Origin: Fuerstiella sp.
GTDB lineage: Bacteria; Planctomycetota; Planctomycetia; Planctomycetales; Planctomycetaceae
Direction: 5' to 3'
Length of the DNA: 64,000 nt
Assembly: GCA_022447225.1 (NCBI GenBank)
Contig: JAKVAZ010000006.1
Span: 124,001-188,000, forward strand
Made by a program: the position numbers and the translations under genes. The notes beneath the pieces are model-generated. The model searched no databases. It saw only the letters and a program-made list of their open reading frames with translations, and was not told where the DNA came from. Below, piece by piece: positions 44,519 to 57,979 of this stretch. Every line of letters starts with the position of its first letter. Positions within the stretch are counted from its first letter, which is position 1.

Positions 44519-45274
44519 TCAGGTCGCTTGCCCGGAAACCCGGGTAAGAACGGCGACGTGACACTGCTTCACACCGGACTGATTCAAAATGCGCACGGCT
44601 TCATCACAGGTCGCTCCTGTGGTCAACACGTCATCTACCAGCAGAATTCGCCTGCCGTCTACAAGGTGTGAGTCCTGAATTCGGAACGAGTCACGCTGAC
44701 TCGCCTGCCGACCGGAAACAGTCGCTCGTTTCTGAAGCGGGGTACCTCTTGACCTTCCCAGCACATTGACGTCCACCGGTCGTTTCAGGGCTTTGCCAAT
44801 CTCCGTTGCCAATAAAGCTGCAGGATTGAAATTACGTATGATTCGCCGGTGCCAGATCTGAGGTATCGGAATGATACGATCAATGCCCAGAGCCTGAAGT
44901 TCCCGGGCACGAACATCAACAAACACTTTTGCCAGCGTCCGGATACTGTTGGAGGAAAATGACCATTTTCCGGACAGCAGCAGCGTCTGTAGAGCTCCCT
45001 CGTACATGGCCAGACACGTTACCGATTTGAAACGGAAACGTCGTCCGCGACAGTGGGGACATTTCCCGGCCGGATCGGCGTGGGGCCCCAGAGATGCACC
45101 ACAGTTTGCACAGGTAACAACCCGCGGTGGATTCAGAAGCTCAAGACAATCAACACAGATCGTCGCCGGTACGTGGTCCGGATTGATATCAGTCACTGTC
45201 TGACAAAGCAGACATTCTGACGGCAGCAGCCATTCAAGAAAGTCCCGGGATGTCCGTCGAAGCAGGGGTCGCAC
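44519..45274 (-). CDS. ComF family phosphoribosyltransferase-like protein
   Basis: A 251-residue ComF family protein: an N-terminal zinc-finger region with four Cys pairs (CLLC, CVDC, CANC, CPHC within residues 19-70) followed by a phosphoribosyltransferase-type domain containing the PRPP loop ILLVDDVLTTGATCDEA (about 211-227). In Bacillus and others ComF assists DNA uptake for transformation; outside those groups the role is open. The start is a GTG with AAGGA upstream, 15 bp after the ThiE fusion stop on the same strand, so the two may be cotranscribed. Confidence 0.9.
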   Translation of the reverse strand: MRPLLRRTSRDFLEWLLPSECLLCQTVTDINPDHVPATICVDCLELLNPPRVVTCANCGASLGPHADPAGKCPHCRGRRFRFKSVTCLAMYEGALQTLLLSGKWSFSSNSIRTLAKVFVDVRARELQALGIDRIIPIPQIWHRRIIRNFNPAALLATEIGKALKRPVDVNVLGRSRGTPLQKRATVSGRQASQRDSFRIQDSHLVDGRRILLVDDVLTTGATCDEAVRILNQSGVKQCHVAVLTRVSGQAT

Positions 45275-45289
45275 AACTGCTAATGTCCT

Positions 45290-46948
45290 TCAAACGTCGT
45301 TGAACCATTCACTTAGATCGCGAACGATTCTGTCCGGTTCTTCAGCGCCAATCACAGCCGATGAAACAGCGATTCGTTGGGCACCGGCACCGGCAACCTG
45401 CTCGACACGATTCCGATCAATTCCGCCAATCGCAAACCAGGGCTTTGTCACAAACCCGGCTGTAGCCATTAATTCCGGTCCTGCCAGGCTGTCAAAGTGT
45501 TTGGTACTGGACGCGAATACCGGTCCGACACCCAGATAGTCCGCTGCATGCGCCGCCGCTGAGTCAATGTCTGCAGCATTGTGGGTGGACAGACCAATCA
45601 ACAAATCGGCACCAACCACGCGCCGGACGTCTTTCACGCAGCAGTCCTGCTGCCCCAGATGGACTCCGTCTGCTCCGCTAAGGTAAGCAATATCGGATCG
45701 ATCATTGACAATGCACAACGCACCGGCCTCATGACAGATCTGAGCCAGCCATTTCGCTCGCGACAGAAGTTCGGAATCGTCCAGATGTTTCTCACGAAGC
45801 TGAATCATATCAGCTCCTCCCTGCAGGCAGGATTCGACAACCTGCTTCCATCCGTGCCGACACCCCTGTTCAGTGATCAGTACACAAACGGTTGCCTGCC
45901 CAAGTCGTTTTAGGCGGAAATAGCCGAAAACGACTCCGGTCAGCATGCGTTGATGAATTTCGTAAGCCCGGTAACGCAACTGCTTCATTTCGACAGAGAA
46001 CTCAGAGCTTATCAGCTTGCCAAATTCTTCGAGGCTGCGCAGAGATTCCTGGATCCTTTTTGAATTGGCATTCACAATATCTATTGTCCCGTGGCGGATC
46101 TGTTCCACAGACCCCGTGAGACCCGTTCCGCAGTCTCCCGGGACATCCCGTTCCAAAACCACAGAATGACTGTGAACACGGTCCGGATCAGTCGCCGCCA
46201 GTTTCTGCTCAGAAACCGCCAGACGGTGCCGCAGATCCTTCAACTCCCTTACCAGCGCGCTGTCGTCCGTGACGAAACGTGCACAGTCCTCAAGCACACG
46301 AATTCCTTCCCGAGCCCGGTTCATACAGGCATCCAGCACACGTGAAGGCTTACACGAATCATGGCTGAGCATTCTGTGATCAGCAGCGCCCGAACTTTCT
46401 ACCTCTGCTCCGGAAGTCACCCGAACGGTGACGGAATCAGCCTCGGCTTCCTGTATACCGCAGTTTGTCAGCAATAACTCCGCAGTCACCCCGTGTTGGC
46501 GCAACGTCCGGCAGACAGGAGTATTGAACTGCAGCATCGCTGAAAGCAGATGTTGACTGGAAATTGCTGCAGACCGCAGATCCATACGGGCGATTCGTCG
46601 CGTTTCCTCAATGATTCGGACCATCCCGGACGGGAGATGCAGGCTTCTCACAGCAACTGAAGCATCAGTATCGCTGTGTGTCGCAGTGGAAAATTCTTTT
46701 GCCGGAGTAAAGAAATTTGTGGCGACATCGTCTGTGGTCACACCGGCGGACCTCAACAAATCGCCTGCCGGACATTCCTGCTCGAGCAGGACACAAATCA
46801 GATGACCGGTACACTGAGCGAGTTCTTCAGACCCACAGCATTCTGCAACGCGCTGCAAAATTCGGAAAACAGACGGTGTCAACAGGAGCTCAGCGTCATC
46901 ACAAGGCAACTTGAAAACTCCAAACGCCTGTCCATTTTGCGCAAGCAT
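45290..46948 (-). CDS. thiE: Clp-N domain / ThiD2-like / ThiE fusion (thiamine-phosphate synthase)
   Basis: A 552-residue fusion. Residues about 15-170 carry two Clp-N type repeats: TPSVFRILQRVAECCGSEEL...HLICVLLEQECPAGDLLRSAG and MVRIIEETRRIARMDLRSAA...QHLLSAMLQFNTPVCRTL, of the class that begins ClpC. Residues about 195-335 match the ThiD2 domain that precedes ThiE in many bacteria (LDACMNRAREGIRVLEDCAR). The C-terminal 210 residues are ThiE, which joins HMP-PP to thiazole phosphate; MIQLREKHLDD, NDRSDIAYLSGADGVHLGQ and LGVGPVFAS are intact. The start at 46948 is the first ATG; a TTG at 46966 is possible. It is divergent from clpC. The Clp-N fusion is unusual. Confidence 0.85.
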   Translation of the reverse strand: MLAQNGQAFGVFKLPCDDAELLLTPSVFRILQRVAECCGSEELAQCTGHLICVLLEQECPAGDLLRSAGVTTDDVATNFFTPAKEFSTATHSDTDASVAVRSLHLPSGMVRIIEETRRIARMDLRSAAISSQHLLSAMLQFNTPVCRTLRQHGVTAELLLTNCGIQEAEADSVTVRVTSGAEVESSGAADHRMLSHDSCKPSRVLDACMNRAREGIRVLEDCARFVTDDSALVRELKDLRHRLAVSEQKLAATDPDRVHSHSVVLERDVPGDCGTGLTGSVEQIRHGTIDIVNANSKRIQESLRSLEEFGKLISSEFSVEMKQLRYRAYEIHQRMLTGVVFGYFRLKRLGQATVCVLITEQGCRHGWKQVVESCLQGGADMIQLREKHLDDSELLSRAKWLAQICHEAGALCIVNDRSDIAYLSGADGVHLGQQDCCVKDVRRVVGADLLIGLSTHNAADIDSAAAHAADYLGVGPVFASSTKHFDSLAGPELMATAGFVTKPWFAIGGIDRNRVEQVAGAGAQRIAVSSAVIGAEEPDRIVRDLSEWFNDV

Positions 46949-47488
46949 AAAGCCCGAACATTCCAATCCCTGGCCGAACAGTCAGTTAAAAGCAACCCTA
47001 AAGCCGGCTGTCCGCCAAAAAACCTCAGGAATACGGGGAAACAAACGACCGACGAATCCCGTTTCTGCGGCACTACTTCAGGAAGTCACCGGACGAGTGT
47101 ATCGGACAATCTTGTCGATCTTCACCGTCACCCATAGAATTCGGTATGTAATTCGCGTAACCGGACAATCTCGACTCAGCCTGCCACAGTGGCGGTCCGA
47201 CGGTGGGGATTGAACGGAACTTAACGATTTGACGGATGAAAGTCGCAGGATTCACTGGGGGACACAATGCGATAAGCTATTGCTCTCCCTGTAACCGATA
47301 TCGAACCTGAGGCAATTCTTTGTGTGCGTCGGTTAATCCAGACCCGGTATAAAATCCCGCGCTAGATTGACTGTAATCAGCCAAAGTTTCAACCGTCGGC
47401 CGAAGGACCCAGAAACATCAAAAGCTTTGAGGCTTGGAAGAGCTGACGAGCCTGTTGTTGAGACACTCTTTAACGAGAGGGAAGCCGA
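46949..47488. other. Divergent promoter region between thiE fusion and clpC
   Basis: A 540-bp gap. TATAAA at 47348-47353 could be a -10 element for clpC, but the hexamer 17 bases upstream is not a convincing -35. No CIRCE-type or CtsR-type box recognised. No gene seen. Confidence 0.4.
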
Positions 47489-50053
47489 ATGTACGAAAGA
47501 TTTACAGACCGGGCTCGCAAAGTGATGCAGCTGGCCAATCAGGAAGCCCAGCGATTCAATCACGAATACATCGGCACTGAACACGTCCTGCTGGGACTGG
47601 TCAAAGAGGGTTCCGGCGTTGCTGCGAATGTCCTGAAGAACCTGGACATCGACCTCCGCAAGATTCGAATCGAAGTCGAGAAGATTGTTCAGACCGGTCC
47701 CGACATGGTCACAATGGGCAAACTCCCGCAAACGCCGCGTGCAAAAAAGGTCATCGAGTATGCCATGGAAGAAGCGCGGAACCTGAACCACAACTATGTT
47801 GGCACGGAGCATCTGCTTCTCGGCCTGCTGCGGGAACAGGAAGGTGTTGCGGCACAGGTCTTAATGAATCTGGGAATGAAACTTGAAGATGTTCGTGACG
47901 AAGTCCTGAATCTTCTTGGGCACGGACTGGAAGCCGCCGAAGCAGGAGGTGGCGGTGAACGGACTGAGGGCAGTTCACAGCGAAGCGGAAGCCGCAGCAA
48001 AACGCCTGCCCTAGACAGCTTTGGTCGAGATCTGAGTGAACTGGCAAAGCAAAAGAAACTGGACCCGGTGATCGGCCGCGAACGCGAAATCGAACGTGTG
48101 ATTCAGATTCTTTGCCGTCGTCAAAAAAACAACCCGGTCCTGCTGGGTGAGGCCGGTGTCGGCAAGACTGCCATCGTGGAAGGCTTTGCCCAAATGGTCG
48201 TTGACGGGAATGTTCCCGATCTCCTTGCAGAACGTCGTATCATTGTCCTGGACTTGGCAATGATGGTCGCGGGTACCAAGTACCGTGGTCAGTTCGAAGA
48301 ACGTATCAAAGCGGTGATGAATGAAGTTCGCCGCGCGCGTAACACCATTCTTTTCATTGATGAGCTGCACACGCTTGTCGGAGCCGGTGGTGCAGAAGGC
48401 GCCATTGACGCTTCCAACGTTTTAAAACCGGCGCTCAGTCGTGGCGAACTCCAGGTGATCGGAGCCACAACACTGGATGAATATCGCAAGTACATCGAAA
48501 AAGACGGAGCACTCGAACGACGTTTCCAGACAGTAATGGTCAATCCTCCGTCACCCGAACAGGCCGTGGAAATCCTCAAAGGCCTGCGCGAACGTTATGA
48601 AGAACATCACCGGGTGCAGATCACGGATGATGCACTGGAAACAGCTGTCGAAATGTCGACTCGTTACATCACCTCCCGCTGTCTGCCGGACAAAGCCATC
48701 GACGTCATTGATGAATCGGGGGCCCGTATCCGTCTGAAATCGATGGTGCGGCCTCCGGATCTCAAGGAAATCGAAGATGAAATTCAGCGACTGAACCAGG
48801 CCAAAGAAGACGCCGTGGCAGAACAGCAGTTTGAAAAAGCGGCGTCGCTGCGTGATCAGGCCGATAAGCTCCGGCGAAAGAAAGACCAGCTAACCGAAGA
48901 ATGGCGTGAAAAATCACGCAAGACAGACGGTGTGGTGGACGCTGAAGTTGTGGCCGAAGTGGTGGCCAAGATGACCGGAATTCCACTCACTCGACTCTCC
49001 AGCGAAGACGCCGTCCGCCTCCTGCAAATGGAAGACGAACTTCACAAACGTGTGATCAGTCAGGATGAACCGATCACACAGGTCTGCAAAGCCGTCCGAC
49101 GAAGCCGCAGCGGCCTGAAGGATCCTAAACGACCAACCGGTGCGTTTCTGTTTTCCGGCCCCACCGGAGTCGGTAAAACACTGCTGGCCAAGACCTTGGC
49201 CGAATTTATGTTCGGAGACGAAGATGCACTGATCCAGATCGACATGTCCGAGTACATGGAAAAACACAACGTCAGCCGACTGATCGGTGCTCCTCCTGGA
49301 TACGTGGGCTATGAAGAAGGTGGTCAGCTCACCGAAAAAATTCGCCGGCGCCCTTATGCAGTTGTGCTGCTGGATGAGATCGAAAAAGCTCATCATGATG
49401 TATTCAATATGTTGCTGCAGATCATGGAAGAAGGGCATTTGACCGACAGCTTCGGCCGAACGGTCGACTTCAAAAATGTTGTTGTGATCATGACCACCAA
49501 TGCCGGAGCCAACCAAATGGCCCACGGCGGCAGTATGGGACTCCACACTCTTCGTGATACGGATGAGGAGCAGTCTTATGACGACATGAAGAAAAACCTG
49601 ATGCACGAACTGCAGAAGCAGTTCAAACCGGAATTCCTTGGACGTCTGGACGAAGTCGTCGTATTCCGTAAACTGACCCGCTCAGAACTCATGGAAATCG
49701 TGGACATCGAACTGGCTAAGGTTTACGACAGACTGATGGAACGAGGCCTGCGTCTGGTGCTAAGCAATGAAGCACGCGGGTTTATTATCGATAAAGGCGA
49801 AGTGGACGACGGCCTGGATTACGGTGCTCGACCACTACGACGGAGTGTTGAGCGTTTCATCGAAGACACACTGTCTGAAGAACTGCTGCGAGGCACATTC
49901 GAAGGCAAAAATGTGATCAACGTGTCTGTCACTGAAGTCGGGGATCAAAAGCAGCTGAGGTTTGACGGTGACTTTGAAGAACCACCGGAAACAGTCGAAG
50001 AAGGAGAACTGGCCGGAGTCGGGTCCGGTGAGGAATCGACGGATGATCAGTAG
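47489..50053 (+). CDS. clpC: ATP-dependent Clp protease ATP-binding subunit ClpC
   Basis: An 854-residue HSP100 unfoldase. Domains in order: Clp-N repeats (1-145, [16 protein letters not shown] and [14 protein letters not shown]), AAA+ domain 1 with Walker [14 protein letters not shown] (about 215-227), middle domain with UVR motif ([20 protein letters not shown], about 448-467), AAA+ domain 2 with Walker [17 protein letters not shown] (about 556-571), and D2-small. A Gly-rich acidic tail closes the protein. GGGAAG precedes the ATG. ClpC feeds unfolded substrates to ClpP. A strong terminator follows at 50095-50123. Divergent partner: the Clp-N/ThiE fusion. Confidence 0.97.
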
Positions 50054-51787: not shown

Positions 51788-53437
51788 ATGACAACCGATT
51801 CCGGCTTTGATACTCCCGCCAGTTCACAAACGGTCCCCCCCCCTGATCCCCCCCGAAAGACGGATGAGGGAGTCTCCGTTCATTTATCAGAAATGTCCAT
51901 CAGCGCAGGCGGGCGTTCACTGCTGTGCAACTCTGCAGCAGAATTTCCGGGCGGATGCGTCAGTCTGATCATTGGCTGCAGCGGTGTTGGCAAATCACTG
52001 CTACTGCGAATTCTCGCGGGCCTAATCGACTCGTCTGACGATGCTATCAGATGGACCGGTCAAATTGACCGTCAATCGTCCTCCGGCCCCCGCCCCGATT
52101 CTTCAGCGGCGGTCGTGTTCCAGAACTATGCGCTGTTCGACGAACTGACGCCACGGGAAAACGTGGAAATCGCACTGGATCACACAGCCTCCCCTTCTGC
52201 CACACAAGCCAGCGTCAGCGATCGGGCCTCAGGTCTCCTGGACCAGCTCGGAGTCCCCACCGATCGACCAACCTCCGTGTTAAGCGGCGGTCAGCAACAG
52301 CGTCTTGCCATTGCCAGAGCCGTTGCAATGGATACCGATATCATTCTCTATGACGAGCCAACATCCGGTCTGGATGCCGCCACGGCCGAACGAGTAGCCC
52401 GGCTGATCCGGTCAACACAGGAACAGTTCCGGCGGACTTCGGTGATTATCACTCATGACTTCCAGGCACTAAAGACGATCGCAGACCGGATCTATGTCCT
52501 GAATCATGTTCGTCATTCTCTTGAAGAAATCCCGCGCGAGCAATGGGACCGGTTAAGCAAAGCTATTGGCGACCCGCCTGACGTCGACACCGACAGCCCG
52601 CCACAACCCGGCCTACCAGCTAAACTCATGTCGGCGGGGTCGCGTTTTCTTGGTCGCAGCGGACAGTCCATTGAAGAAATCGTGAGGTTGCCCTGGTCAC
52701 TGCTGCCGATGTGGAACAGCTTCCGCTGGGGACTTCGAAGCACACGTCACTATCTGGGTCTGGTCGCCGGTCCGTCGGCCTGTGTCTACATCACGATTGC
52801 CGGAATCATCATCGGTTTCGTGTCTCAGGATTTTATTTTTCGTTATTTGCCCTTTCGTCAGTACACGGAACCTCTGCTGATTGAAAACCTGCTGCATGCA
52901 ACCGGTTTTTCACTTTACCGATTCCTGGTGCCGCTTCTGTGCACGATTCTGATCGCTGCCCGGTCTGGAGCTGCGGTGGCCGCCGATATTGGCAGTAAGG
53001 TCTATGGAAATCAGATCGATGCGATGAAAACAATCGGCATTGATCCCGAACGATCACTGCGGACACCCATTCTCTATGCTTTTCTGCTGGGAACTCCACT
53101 GCTGACACTGCTGAGTTATGCAGCAGCAACGCTCACTGCAGCAGTCGCATTTCTGGCCACCCATGCCGATCAGGGTGTGGTATTCTGGGATGCACACTAC
53201 CACAAAGAGCTGCGTGACCCGGCAGCAGTATTCTACTGCGGAAGCAACTGGTTAATTGCGAAGCTGCTGTGTTGCGCCGCCGGAATCGCAATGGTCGCCT
53301 GGAACTGTGGATCAACACCAAAGCAATCCGGACCGGAAATCAGTACCGGTGTCACGCGAACAATTCTCTGGTCAACGTTACTCGTCCTGCTGGTCCACCT
53401 GCTGTTCTCCCTGCTGGAATTCCAGGCTCCGGTTTGA
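51788..53437 (+). CDS. ABC transporter, fused MlaF-type ATPase and MlaE permease
   Basis: A 549-residue fusion. The N-terminal half is a complete ABC ATPase: Walker A GCSGVGKS (63-70), Q-loop FQNYALFDELT, signature LSGGQQQRLAIAR (about 164-176), Walker B IILYDEPTSGLD (about 185-196) and H-loop ITHDFQ. The C-terminal half (about 300-549) has the MlaE permease signature RSGAAVAADIGSKVYGNQID (about 395-414) then AMKTIGIDPE, and several hydrophobic helices. In Proteobacteria MlaF and MlaE are separate genes that move phospholipids across the envelope; here they are joined in one protein. The gene upstream encodes a possible periplasmic partner. No MlaD, MlaB or MlaC homologue is adjacent. Confidence 0.88.
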   Translation: MTTDSGFDTPASSQTVPPPDPPRKTDEGVSVHLSEMSISAGGRSLLCNSAAEFPGGCVSLIIGCSGVGKSLLLRILAGLIDSSDDAIRWTGQIDRQSSSGPRPDSSAAVVFQNYALFDELTPRENVEIALDHTASPSATQASVSDRASGLLDQLGVPTDRPTSVLSGGQQQRLAIARAVAMDTDIILYDEPTSGLDAATAERVARLIRSTQEQFRRTSVIITHDFQALKTIADRIYVLNHVRHSLEEIPREQWDRLSKAIGDPPDVDTDSPPQPGLPAKLMSAGSRFLGRSGQSIEEIVRLPWSLLPMWNSFRWGLRSTRHYLGLVAGPSACVYITIAGIIIGFVSQDFIFRYLPFRQYTEPLLIENLLHATGFSLYRFLVPLLCTILIAARSGAAVAADIGSKVYGNQIDAMKTIGIDPERSLRTPILYAFLLGTPLLTLLSYAAATLTAAVAFLATHADQGVVFWDAHYHKELRDPAAVFYCGSNWLIAKLLCCAAGIAMVAWNCGSTPKQSGPEISTGVTRTILWSTLLVLLVHLLFSLLEFQAPV

Positions 53438-53849: not shown

Positions 53850-56800
53850 TCAATCTGAAACATCCAGTTTGAAATTCCTGCCGGATAATCCCTGCGTTTC
53901 CAGATTGTACTGGTACCGTGGACCACTCACGATACGAAACTGTCCGGTTCCTCCCAATCGCTGACGCAGGTTGACCAAACGACCATTTTCGGCAGTCAAA
54001 GTGATCTGTGATTTGGAACGATCGTAGGAAATCCTGTCCGCGTCACCGGACAGGTCGCGGGATTCCAGTTGAGCATCGCCAACCGCTGTCACTGAAAACT
54101 CATCGCCGTCGGCACCAGGCACCGATTCAATGTAGACTTCTTCAGCCTGCAGCAGTCGACTGTCTTCCGGCATCGTCTCCGCCGGAAGTGACTCCAAGTC
54201 TATTTTCTCATCGAGTTCCTGCACAGGAACAAAAGCAATAGTCACGAAGTTTCTCAGACTTACGTCCCGGTCATTCAGACTTCCCTCCATCTGTCCAATA
54301 AACGACGCCCTCAGCCGAACAAGTGGCGATCTGCCAATTTCGGTTCGGCGATTCGACTCCACACGAATCTGCGTCACCGGACCGGATTTGGTGTTCGTTG
54401 TCGTTGACTCAATATATCCCGGACCAATTGCTGAAAATTTCCCGGTGCCTGGTTCCAGCTCCAGATCAACCATCTTTGCATTCAGCAAACCGTCCAACTC
54501 TCCGTCAGTAAAGGATTCCCGATGTATAAGCGTCTCACCCACACAACGAATCCGTTCAATTTCGGGAGAATCTGACGAACTAACTGAGTCAACGCTAATG
54601 CGTTCAGAGTTCTGCGAACCGGCGAGATTAATCGCATCAGCAAAAAAGACCATCAGTTCGGGCGTACGGATTTCCGCATCATGGACCTGTGGGTCATCCA
54701 CGGCATACTGGAGTTCGTCAACATCAACACGAATGCCACCGACAAAATGTGCCCTTTTACCGCGAACATTCATGTAGTCTGTCCAGCGAATCTTAATGGG
54801 AACCGGACTCGGTAACTGCTGTCCGTCGAAATCCTGATCAATCACCATTTCCAGCTTACCACCGCCATTGATTTCGGCCACACCCTCAGCCTGATGCAGG
54901 TCGATCCTCAGCCCTGTGACGTGCCCCGTTGAAGAACGGAGCATTGCTGGATTTCCAAACAACTTGATATCAGCCTGATCGCCAACACCATTTTCGGCAA
55001 TAAACGTACTGCCTTCAGCGGTATACGCGTCCTTCGGATCAATGCCCTGATGCTGGACAATGACGTCTCCGGCCAGCCGAATATGGCTCCATCGCTGCTG
55101 CCCAGAGGAATCATCGGAAAGCACAACTTTTGCCGTCATTTCCCGACCAAAGAATGTGGAATGTCCCTGATCGCCCGAAAGACGAGATTCAGTCTGCGAA
55201 GCACGTTTCTCGTTTGAACCGGACAATTCCTTTGTCTGTGAAATCACACTGATGTTTCTTTTGACACTGTCCTCATTCGGATGAAAATAAACCGTCAACT
55301 GATCCTTCAATTCACCCGAAACTCTTGGCGACCGAACAATCACATTTCCCTGAGCTACCAGTTTCTCCGGGCGTAAATCCGCCACATTCAGTGACAACTC
55401 CGGCGGAGTTCGGGACTGCCTCCCGGTAGGCACCTGTTCCGCAGCGTCCAGCCTGAGTTTGATGGTTCGGCCCTCAATCTTCATCTGACGGTCCGGAAGC
55501 GACACTTTTCCGCCACCGGCAATTGTGACAGTACAGGACTTGCCGGCGGCCTGCCGACGCACGTTGAGGTGTCGTGTCCACAGGACGGAAGCCGCGATAT
55601 CACGGTCCCCCACATTCCAGCGGGATTTTCCCGGACGTCCTAGAGAAGCAGGAAAGATAGAACCGGGTCCGATACATTCAATACGCTCAACGCCGGTCCC
55701 TTCACCGTGAAGCAGTCGCAGGTGAGGAACACGCAACACACGACCATTCTGCTGGATACTTAGTTTCCTTTGTTGTCGTTTTGAACTGTCCTGCGACTGG
55801 AGTGAACCGTACATATCCAGTTGACGAGCACCAACCTGATAGTCCAGCTGCATCATGCCGGCTTTAATGTCGTTCTCAGTCGAGTAATACCGGACAATTT
55901 TTTTCGAGACGCCTCTGGCTGAAACTTTGCCAAGATGAAGTCGACTGATATTGGCTCTGCCGGTGTCCTCAAGAACATTCTGGTAAAATGCCACATGGAG
56001 CTCCGGAGAATACATGCGGTCCGGTTCACCATCAGTCATTCGTTTCACCCGCACGTCCGTCTGCCGGTAGTCGTTACCGCCACGCATCCCGTAAAATATT
56101 CCCCGATTCGTCCTGAGATCGAATACAAAACTTCCGGGAGCAACAATCTCCAGTTCAGTTCCATTTTGGTTCCGTGGCTCGTCGAACTGCAGGCTGCACA
56201 CAACCGGACCATTCATTTTCACAGCTGTAACAGTATTCACCGAAGTGAGACCTTTGGCATTTTCAGAATCAGGTTCGAGCAAAATTTCAACACCATTGTC
56301 CGCATAACCACTGTGACTCTCCCAGTGAAAGTCAACACGGTTGAACGATTTCAGTTTCATTGAAATCTCATCCACTGAAAATTCATGTCCGGTGATGTGC
56401 AGACCTTTGGGACCCTGAATCACAACATTGCCGGTCAGCCAGCCGTTAATAATTCGTCCAACTGAGGAATTCTTTGCTGAGAATCGTTCAGAAAGCGTCA
56501 GACGCGCAGAATCCGCGGTGACGACGATCGGCTTGACGTCGGGATCTTGATTCTTCCAAAGCATTGCAACCGGCTTCAGATCAATTAACTGACCGGCAGT
56601 CTCGGCAGGACCGGCTGCCGGAACTTCTGTGGTTTCCTGGGTGTTAAAAAACAGATACTGACGGTCATTTCGAAAGCTTTTATTCGCCTGGCGGACCCAG
56701 GCACTTTCGGGAAACCACTGCAGCACCGATTCATCTGCGACGGAAATCACTTCTGCCTGTGAAGCCTGTACCGGACGTCTCCGCACACTACGTTCAACGT

Positions 56801-56906
56801 CCAGCCATTGTGAACAGAACTGTATGTAGCCAAAGCACAGGCCGCTTAACGTTACCGCCGCAACAAGACTTCGAAGCACTCGATCGGTTGGTGATTGCAC
56901 ATCCAT
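53850..56906 (-). CDS. Large LptA/OstA-like envelope protein
   Basis: A roughly 1018-residue protein with an N-terminal hydrophobic anchor (LVAAVTLSGLCFGYIQFCS) and a long beta-rich body. Several segments have the pattern of OstA/LptA jellyroll repeats (for example a stretch ending EKLVAQGNVIVRSPRVSG, and LLQAEEVYIES...DEFSVTAVGDAQLESRD), so it resembles a chain of LptC/LptA-type domains fused together. Such proteins bridge LPS through the periplasm. The start could be ATG 56906 (GGAAG 9 bases upstream) or GTG 56930, whose TG overlaps the kdsD stop. Coupling with kdsD recalls the E. coli kdsD-kdsC-lptC-lptA-lptB cluster. Function inferred. Confidence 0.72.
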   Translation of the reverse strand: MDVQSPTDRVLRSLVAAVTLSGLCFGYIQFCSQWLDVERSVRRRPVQASQAEVISVADESVLQWFPESAWVRQANKSFRNDRQYLFFNTQETTEVPAAGPAETAGQLIDLKPVAMLWKNQDPDVKPIVVTADSARLTLSERFSAKNSSVGRIINGWLTGNVVIQGPKGLHITGHEFSVDEISMKLKSFNRVDFHWESHSGYADNGVEILLEPDSENAKGLTSVNTVTAVKMNGPVVCSLQFDEPRNQNGTELEIVAPGSFVFDLRTNRGIFYGMRGGNDYRQTDVRVKRMTDGEPDRMYSPELHVAFYQNVLEDTGRANISRLHLGKVSARGVSKKIVRYYSTENDIKAGMMQLDYQVGARQLDMYGSLQSQDSSKRQQRKLSIQQNGRVLRVPHLRLLHGEGTGVERIECIGPGSIFPASLGRPGKSRWNVGDRDIAASVLWTRHLNVRRQAAGKSCTVTIAGGGKVSLPDRQMKIEGRTIKLRLDAAEQVPTGRQSRTPPELSLNVADLRPEKLVAQGNVIVRSPRVSGELKDQLTVYFHPNEDSVKRNISVISQTKELSGSNEKRASQTESRLSGDQGHSTFFGREMTAKVVLSDDSSGQQRWSHIRLAGDVIVQHQGIDPKDAYTAEGSTFIAENGVGDQADIKLFGNPAMLRSSTGHVTGLRIDLHQAEGVAEINGGGKLEMVIDQDFDGQQLPSPVPIKIRWTDYMNVRGKRAHFVGGIRVDVDELQYAVDDPQVHDAEIRTPELMVFFADAINLAGSQNSERISVDSVSSSDSPEIERIRCVGETLIHRESFTDGELDGLLNAKMVDLELEPGTGKFSAIGPGYIESTTTNTKSGPVTQIRVESNRRTEIGRSPLVRLRASFIGQMEGSLNDRDVSLRNFVTIAFVPVQELDEKIDLESLPAETMPEDSRLLQAEEVYIESVPGADGDEFSVTAVGDAQLESRDLSGDADRISYDRSKSQITLTAENGRLVNLRQRLGGTGQFRIVSGPRYQYNLETQGLSGRNFKLDVSD

Positions 56907-56926
56907 TATGACAGACTTCCGTGCAT

Positions 56927-57979
56927 TCACGCAGAGTATCGCTGTGAAGAATCAATAATCTGCTCACCGGACGACCGCAGGTCAATCAGATCCGTGATGT
57001 CAATCACTCCAACCGGACAACCCTGATCATCAATCACCGGTAACTCACTGAGCTTGCCGACAGACATCACTTCCACAGCCTGAGGAACCAGAGCTGACTG
57101 GTGAATTGTGCATGGATTTGCAGACATCACTTCGGCGATGGGACGATCGAGCTGATTTTCTCTGTGCTGCTCAAGCAGGCGCGTGAGGTCGCTGTCCGTA
57201 AAGATCCCACTCAGTGTTCCCTCATCGGAAACCAGCAGGACAGCCCCTGTACGGCGGCCAGGCAGCTGTTGATCAACCAGTACAGACCGAATTGTACGGG
57301 ACGGACTGGCCATCCTAAGATCCTCCCCGGTTCTCATAACGTCGCGCACGGACAGTAACTGACGACCAATGTCTCCCGCCGGATGGACCTTCGCAAAGTC
57401 ATGAACCGTAAACCCCTGAACCCTGCTGATCGTTAATGCCAGAGCATCTCCCGCTGCGAGCATCGCCGCTGTACTGGTTGTGGGCGCCAGCCTGAACTCG
57501 CCGGCCTCCTGATGATGGCCGATGTTTATGGTAACTCTCGCGCCACGGGCCAGCGGATTACAGCAGTCTCGTGTTAGGGCAATCACCGGAATATCGCGGT
57601 CCGAAAATAAGGGCAACAACCGCAGGACTTCTTCCGAGCGACCACTGTTGGAAATCATCAGCACGATGTCGTCGTCGTGAACGCAGCCGATGTCACCATG
57701 AAGCGCCTCTGTCGGATGCAAAAACCATGCACGAGTTCCCGTGCTGGCGAATGTTGCCACCATCTTTTGTCCGATCAGACCGGCCTTACCAACCCCCGTC
57801 ACAATCACGCAGCCGGACGTCCCGCCAACCAACCGAACCGCTTCGTAAAACGAAGTGTCCAGTGAATCCGCCAAGACCTCCAATGCCTGTGCTTCTTCGC
57901 AGATAACGTCACGCGCAAAACGTAACTGATCCACGGCGTCCAGAGGAATTACCTCAGACGACGTTGGCTGTTCCCGCAT
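56927..57979 (-). CDS. kdsD: Arabinose-5-phosphate isomerase (KpsF/KdsD)
   Basis: An isomerase that turns ribulose 5-phosphate into arabinose 5-phosphate, the first step to KDO for lipopolysaccharide. Domains: SIS fold (about 30-180, GVGKAGLIGQKMVATFASTG and MISNSGRSEEVL), then two CBS domains (RTIRSVLVDQQLP; LTRLLEQHRENQ; a VMSANPCTIHQSALV block). The ALHGDIGCVHDDDIVL metal-site region and ISNSGRSEE agree with KdsD rather than GutQ alone. Start: ATG 57979 has AGGGAA with good spacing; ATG 58012 is the alternative. The OstA-like gene overlaps its stop. Confidence 0.92.
   Translation of the reverse strand: MREQPTSSEVIPLDAVDQLRFARDVICEEAQALEVLADSLDTSFYEAVRLVGGTSGCVIVTGVGKAGLIGQKMVATFASTGTRAWFLHPTEALHGDIGCVHDDDIVLMISNSGRSEEVLRLLPLFSDRDIPVIALTRDCCNPLARGARVTINIGHHQEAGEFRLAPTTSTAAMLAAGDALALTISRVQGFTVHDFAKVHPAGDIGRQLLSVRDVMRTGEDLRMASPSRTIRSVLVDQQLPGRRTGAVLLVSDEGTLSGIFTDSDLTRLLEQHRENQLDRPIAEVMSANPCTIHQSALVPQAVEVMSVGKLSELPVIDDQGCPVGVIDITDLIDLRSSGEQIIDSSQRYSA

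Follow-up and report, generated by a model that had tools for sequence, protein, structure and literature searches.

A Clp-N-type domain fused to the thiamine-phosphate synthase of many Planctomycetia as a possible docking arm for a protein partner

ThiE completes the synthesis of vitamin B1 by linking its two halves, and the N-domains of Clp proteins form the input port of Clp proteases. Fusions of ThiD2 with ThiE occur in cyanobacteria and other Planctomycetota (family NF002727), and the Clp-N fold occurs outside Clp unfoldases. Plant ClpT, for example, acts around Clp as one of the subunits that make up the ClpPR core in chloroplasts, and ClpT1 and ClpT2 are not fused to an enzyme. Mycobacterial ClpC2 also has a Clp-N domain without an unfoldase and acts around Clp; the accessible part of PMC10030653 describes it as a regulator and peptide sponge rather than an enzyme fusion. 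ClpN repeats are likewise carried by vWA proteins of conflict systems, whose partner domain and setting, as far as outlined in the accessible part of PMC7159879, are unrelated to ThiD2-ThiE. In ClpC itself, the N-domain of the S. aureus protein maintains the resting state and reads phospho-arginine through T7, R9, E32, K85, E106 and other residues, according to the accessible part of PMC12583610. Here, we describe a planctomycete protein in which a domain of this type precedes ThiD2 and ThiE.

The gene lies in a 64,000-nucleotide stretch of a Fuerstiella sp. genome, the whole of which is referred to as the window (Table 1). The original prediction gave its interval without a strand; the interval and the order of the domains were right, and the gene runs along the minus strand. 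Its ATG is preceded, at a distance of 18 bases, by an in-frame TTG, and the residues directly after the ATG are, by eye, similar to those of a congener (L002). As predicted, ThiD2 and then ThiE follow the N-terminal domain, with Pfam and NCBIfam matches over their cut-offs: ThiD2 (PF17792) scored 127.8 bits (cut-off 23.5), TMP-TENI 179.4 bits, NF002727 (thiamine phosphate synthase) 353.1 bits (cut-off 335) and TIGR00693 173.9 bits (cut-off 145.1). The order of ThiD2 and TMP synthase is the same as in the fusions of cyanobacteria and other Planctomycetota. In an alignment with thiamin phosphate synthase 1g4t, Q383-R385-K387, N415-D416, S454, T482-K483 and G508-G509 are present, and the QxREK, ND, S, TK and GG stretches, which we take to have catalytic roles, are thus in place. 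By its family score and these conserved active-site stretches, the window protein is a predicted TMP synthase. ClpC has AAA modules after its N-domain, whereas no AAA family was found in the fusion protein by Pfam at E up to 1, and so it is not a class I Clp unfoldase. The full-length model (mean pLDDT 84.9, pTM 0.62) is confident for ThiE and mostly confident for Clp-N and ThiD2, with weaker loops and a disordered stretch between these two domains. A frameshifted fusion of genes that are separate in relatives, which the original prediction had itself raised, was ruled out, since the relatives have one fused gene in a single open frame.

Table 1. Features of the fusion gene and its surroundings in the window
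Feature	Position	Strand	Basis or remark
comF-like phosphoribosyltransferase gene	44519..45274	-	15 bases downstream of the fusion gene, same strand
Clp-N-ThiD2-ThiE fusion gene	45290..46948	-	single open frame from ATG at 46948, 552 aa
ThiE / TMP-TENI domain (predicted TMP synthase), residues 356-532	45353..45883	-	Pfam, NCBIfam, 1g4t alignment
ThiD2 domain (HMP-P kinase family), residues 203-333	45950..46342	-	Pfam
Linker, disordered, residues 168-198	46355..46447	-	pLDDT <50
Clp-N double repeat, residues 22-165	46454..46885	-	Pfam (second repeat only), family profile, AlphaFold2 fold
Intergenic region, divergent, 540 bases	46949..47488	.	between the fusion-gene ATG and clpC
clpC, two Clp_N repeats and UVR motif	47489..50053	+	Pfam; divergent from the fusion gene

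The N-terminal domain had been predicted to consist of two Clp-N repeats, and this was borne out by a Pfam score over the cut-off, by a profile of the family and by structure prediction. The proposed profile search with PF02861 (Clp_N) was positive at residues 124-159, where the score of 23.6 bits (E 6e-05) exceeds the cut-off of 20.7; this score is modest by itself and the match spans the second repeat alone, the evidence for the first repeat being the family profile and the predicted fold. We aligned 46 N-termini (alignment A1), those of the window protein and of 45 relatives with a long N-terminus, leaving out eight loci without one, L055, which lacks ThiD2, and L001, which is the window's own copy. 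Clp_N matched 41 of the 46 rows at E 0.01, the window's row among them, with a best E of 6e-14. The family profile made from A1 matched the window protein, whose own row is not independent of it, at residues 22-165. In whole-sequence score, it gave 78.7 bits for the window's ClpC and 62.9 for ClpB, while by single best domain ClpB (62.9) stood above ClpC (54.6); the best unrelated ORF of the window reached 3.5 bits. An AlphaFold2 model of the N-domain alone had a mean pLDDT of 77.9. With this model, ClpC N-domains took the highest Foldseek rows, and four of them had an E of at most 0.001; ClpD stood at rank 11, and ClpD, ClpT, ClpB and other Hsp100 N-domains were among the 50 listed. VIA-align gave a Z of 15.7 over 132 residues, its 22 highest rows all being ClpC N-domains (Z 15.7 to 13.8), and ClpT1/T2, which like the fusion protein have the Clp-N fold without an unfoldase, matched with a Z of about 13. 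Bacillus subtilis has ClpC and McsB; the control genome bearing this name showed no match to PF02861 or PF00217 and is not a reliable control. Taken together, the profile matches and the model support a double Clp-N domain like that which opens ClpC, alike both in double-repeat fold and in profile match.

The architecture was sought across genomes, as had been suggested, and found to recur. In the relatives search, 59 genomes gave matches in 56, and the loci of 55 were read, the split match of G021 being left out. The class sample comprised 148 genomes, 147 with a classifiable ThiE match (G522 is unclassified). The class is taken to be Planctomycetia because some of its loci stand at zero tree distance from named records: L012 from L091 (Isosphaeraceae), L036 from L101 (Planctomycetaceae) and L047 from L104 (Pan216). 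In this sample, 115 genomes had a family-profile match starting no later than position 20, the match of G503 ended at a contig edge, and three partial matches were judged by eye, with Clp-N present in G504 and G041 (in the latter's ThiE also by Pfam) and absent in G506. Clp-N is thus fused to ThiE in 117 of the 147 classified genomes of the class, and the remaining 30 have ThiE without Clp-N. Across the phylum, sampled with 392 genomes, 30 of the matches listed start no later than model position 20, and every one of them belongs to the genus, family or class of the window; the other 10 class members listed start at 152-166, that is, without Clp-N. Among the matches listed, no fused one was found outside the class: those from outside it start at model position 92 or later, the earliest (G188) having an upstream part that is not Clp-N-like by eye, and the match of G104, from 114, has two internal stops. 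Among the best 80 of 564 named GTDB-contig loci, the extension was seen by eye in 12, all titled planctomycetes and including Singulisphaera acidiphila and Planctomycetes bacterium Pan216; all four of those scanned passed the Clp_N cut-off, and the case of L113 is weak. L156, a contig whose title is Candidatus Kuenenia stuttgartiensis, has a thiE/clpC pair with an upstream part that is not Clp-N-like; it groups with L177 of the window's class and is probably a misplaced contig or binning error. The ThiD2-ThiE fusions of cyanobacteria, unlike the window protein, have no Clp-N, with at most 68 residues before ThiD2 in the readable loci (L147 and L152 are not judgeable, and L133 ends at the contig end). 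We found no report of Clp-N fused to ThiE in the accessible parts of the open-licence literature searched.

The fusion protein is the only TMP synthase found in the window's genome, where ThiC is present. More widely, exactly one TMP-TENI match over the cut-off was present in each of 23/25 genomes with a match, the window's genome being in the sample. Full-length ThiD (PF08543) was found in four of the 25 genomes (G041, G039, G042 and G045), not including the window's. Partial PF08543 matches alone were found in 18 more, candidates for other kinases; that of the window's genome scored 40.5 bits, over the cut-off, at positions 119-225 of 246, and is likewise a candidate for another kinase. ThiD2 phosphorylates HMP monophosphate, not HMP, as stated in the accessible part of PMC12345177. 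In G041 (L178 / L055, G041:C155), Clp-N is joined to ThiE without ThiD2 and a full-length ThiD is present, a single case that fits ThiD2 standing in for ThiD; G039, G042 and G045 have both ThiD and ThiD2.

The original prediction placed the fusion gene divergently beside clpC, and the window agrees (Table 1). No TPP riboswitch or other Rfam family matched the window at the gathering threshold, and a scan of 3.3 kb for promoter-like sites gave one, which is not above the 1.4 expected by chance. The comF-like gene is presumably co-transcribed with the fusion gene, and a comF match adjoins thiE in L002, L003 and L176 as well. ClpC is present in 145 of the 148 class genomes (E up to 1e-150). On the question of whether the architecture always neighbours clpC, the answer was negative: thiE has clpC no more than 3 kb away in 29 of the 117 carriers of Clp-N vs 24 of 30 non-carriers, the two matches being on different contigs, or no ClpC match listed, in 65 carriers and five non-carriers. 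Where a distance could be measured, the counts are 29 of 52 carriers vs 24 of 25 non-carriers (23 of the 24 divergent), with distances running between matches rather than gene ends and kinship uncorrected. In 23 of the 117 carriers, clpC is far from thiE on one contig, which rules out adjacency as a requirement for the fusion. Moreover, four families (f2, 36 carriers; f3, 31; f4, 3; f104, 4) have the fusion with no adjacent pair seen, although 56 of these 74 have matches on different contigs or no ClpC listed. These counts and families imply that adjacency and fusion are separate traits. Elsewhere in the window, one 549-residue protein (51788-53437, plus strand) joins an ABC ATPase (residues 53-193) to an MlaE permease (329-542), which are usually separate proteins, and a 1026-residue protein (53850-56930, minus strand) carries, close to its C-terminus, an LptA/LptD N-terminal-like segment at residues 924-1012.

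In a tree of the domains, those of ThiE, ClpC and ClpB form three separate groups (SH-aLRT 93.7, 99.9 and 84.4, respectively). This tree holds 44 of the 59 ThiE rows of a larger domain tree; it was built without T_s21 and T_s7, both of them long, without the 13 rows that come from L055 and named loci, and without L197, L199 and a stand-alone protein of L025. In the larger tree, two changes are needed for ThiE. The ThiE Clp-N is possibly a copy from the neighbouring clpC, a parent that the three groups of the tree cannot tell. A presence/absence tree of 126 rows, 60 of them labelled Clp-N (partly by eye), requires at least nine changes of state; it is a quick tree with no inferred root and weak deep branches, and the changes may be gains or losses. 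Clp-N also occurs in other proteins of these genomes. The stand-alone protein of L025 (L025:409-1245, minus strand, G005) has 278 residues and three Clp_N repeats, lies between clpC and a Clp-N thiE, and groups by its first part with ClpC in the larger domain tree. In G043, a stand-alone double Clp-N protein of 166 residues (L197:684-1184, minus strand) falls beside the ClpC group. Clp_N also matched, weakly, two frames of 955 and 992 codons (L198, G039:C1:755108, and L199, G009:C1:400461), which are neither ClpC nor a ThiE fusion.

We compared residues in an alignment of the 46 ThiE Clp-N domains and the N-domains of 21 distinct planctomycete ClpC proteins, the S. aureus numbering being carried by motif to the window's ClpC (R8, E31, K86 and E107). 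The T7 position is Thr in 37 and Ser in nine of the ThiE domains. Arg is never found at the R9 position (0/46), the E32 position is Glu in about six, the K85 position is not conserved, and the E106 position is Glu in 31; in the window protein, the two Glu positions are occupied by Gly48 and Gln132. Ahead of repeat 2, the stretch corresponding to ClpC 76-81, which we take to be the site of cyclomarin contacts, is gapped in most ThiE rows. Many hydrophobic core positions are retained, and two near-invariant residues, R29 (46/46) and E58 (43/46), are new to the ThiE domains. The Glu32/Glu106 pair together with the Arg9/Lys85 contacts of the phospho-arginine-reading type was not found as a conserved set in the 46 rows. 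These changed contact residues argue against a ClpC-like reading, and the domain is unlikely to read phospho-arginine in the manner of ClpC. The original prediction had suggested that the fusion could direct ThiE to the protease or protect it from it; this would be a candidate role only, the ClpC residues for phospho-arginine and for the resting state being mostly changed.

We propose, tentatively and with less than even confidence, that the Clp-N domain is a docking arm that binds a protein partner, likely of the Clp system, and tunes the stability or amount of the enzyme. The domain would derive from a Clp N-domain and would then have diverged into its own group. It would not be a catalytic part of the enzyme but an arm on a flexible linker, and its partner would most likely lie within the Clp quality-control system, which would do this tuning through proteolysis or chaperoning. 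We counted in favour of this proposal the ClpC fold, the family profile, the spread of the fusion, the selection on the domain (see below), the case of G041, the disordered linker and the prevalence of ClpC and McsB; against it, the changed contact residues, the untied clpC adjacency, the changes of state and the carriers without ClpS. It is rather unlikely, though worth serious weight, that the fold is instead a structural module with no Clp link, serving oligomerisation, solubility or the placing of ThiD2 beside ThiE. The altered ClpC contacts over a retained hydrophobic core, the domain's own R29 and E58, and its own group beside ClpC and ClpB would all suit such a module, but the disordered linker and the pTM indicate no fixed packing on the enzyme, and ThiE does without Clp-N in 30 of the 147 genomes. 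A Clp-type partner is preferred over a purely structural role because unfoldase-free Clp-N domains elsewhere, in ClpT and ClpC2, act around Clp.

Selection on the domain was estimated as dN/dS by the Nei-Gojobori method for 39 pairs, two of them identical copies, with a defined Clp-N dS in 23. The figures are from the six pairs with a Clp-N dS below 1, namely window-L002 and five close pairs outside the window's genus. In the five pairs, dN/dS was 0.11-0.19 for Clp-N, 0.01-0.05 for ThiD2 and 0.03-0.09 for ThiE, and in window-L002 it was 0.31, 0.15 and 0.16, respectively. The linker gave 0.93 in window-L002 and 0-0.30, over 24 codons, in the five others. Clp-N is thus under purifying selection and evolves faster than ThiD2 and ThiE; with values that are low but above those of the enzyme domains, it is constrained, though less than the enzyme. 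The faster evolution and the patchy presence might be expected of a passenger of an old gene fusion, doing little, yet dN/dS is well below 1 in six of six pairs and 117 of 147 genomes retain the domain, which makes a passenger improbable.

The docking arm that we favour would act in genomes where an McsB-type kinase (PF00217) is common (24 of 25, the window's included). In the window's genome, an McsB-type protein arginine kinase is encoded near dnaK and clpB (L174:7435-8535, plus strand); it scores 430.6 bits with NF002194 (cut-off 385) and 377.7 with NF053707, below the cut-off of 500. That the domain works exactly like the ClpC N-domain, by reading phospho-arginine or by handing the enzyme over as an McsB/ClpC substrate, is very unlikely: the widespread kinase, its score over the NF002194 cut-off and the Glu kept at the E106 position in 31 rows speak for it, but the R9 equivalent is never Arg, the E32 equivalent is mostly lost and the window protein lacks both Glu residues. 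ClpS had no match in 38 of the 117 carriers in the class survey, the window's genome included, which rules it out as an obligate partner; the domain cannot depend on ClpS in every carrier. ClpS matched in 29 of the 30 genomes without Clp-N on ThiE (Fisher p 0.0008 vs carriers), a statistic strongly confounded by kinship, as 32 of the 38 ClpS-less carriers belong to the window's family. ClpS is patchy in the class, and 32 of the 37 genomes from that family lack a match. Least probable of all is a role as a sponge that soaks up peptides or antibiotics directed at the N-domain of ClpC, for which ClpC2 offers a precedent (accessible part of PMC10030653), but the 76-81 stretch is gapped in most rows and K85, a cyclic-peptide contact according to the accessible part of PMC12583610, is not conserved.

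If the Clp-N domain is indeed a docking arm for a Clp partner, many Planctomycetia would have their sole TMP synthase under direct, in-cis control by Clp proteolysis or chaperoning, with neither ClpC-like phospho-arginine reading nor a need for ClpS, a possibility that we consider less likely than not. The presence of Clp-N on ThiE suggests that making the vitamin and controlling the quality of proteins may be connected in a way not yet explored, and a direct coupling of cofactor synthesis with quality control becomes testable by deletion of the domain. In addition, the ThiE domains (59 in the larger tree) are a natural set of diverged, unfoldase-free Clp-N domains in which the regulatory residues of ClpC are changed, and which could help to tell the fold apart from its function.
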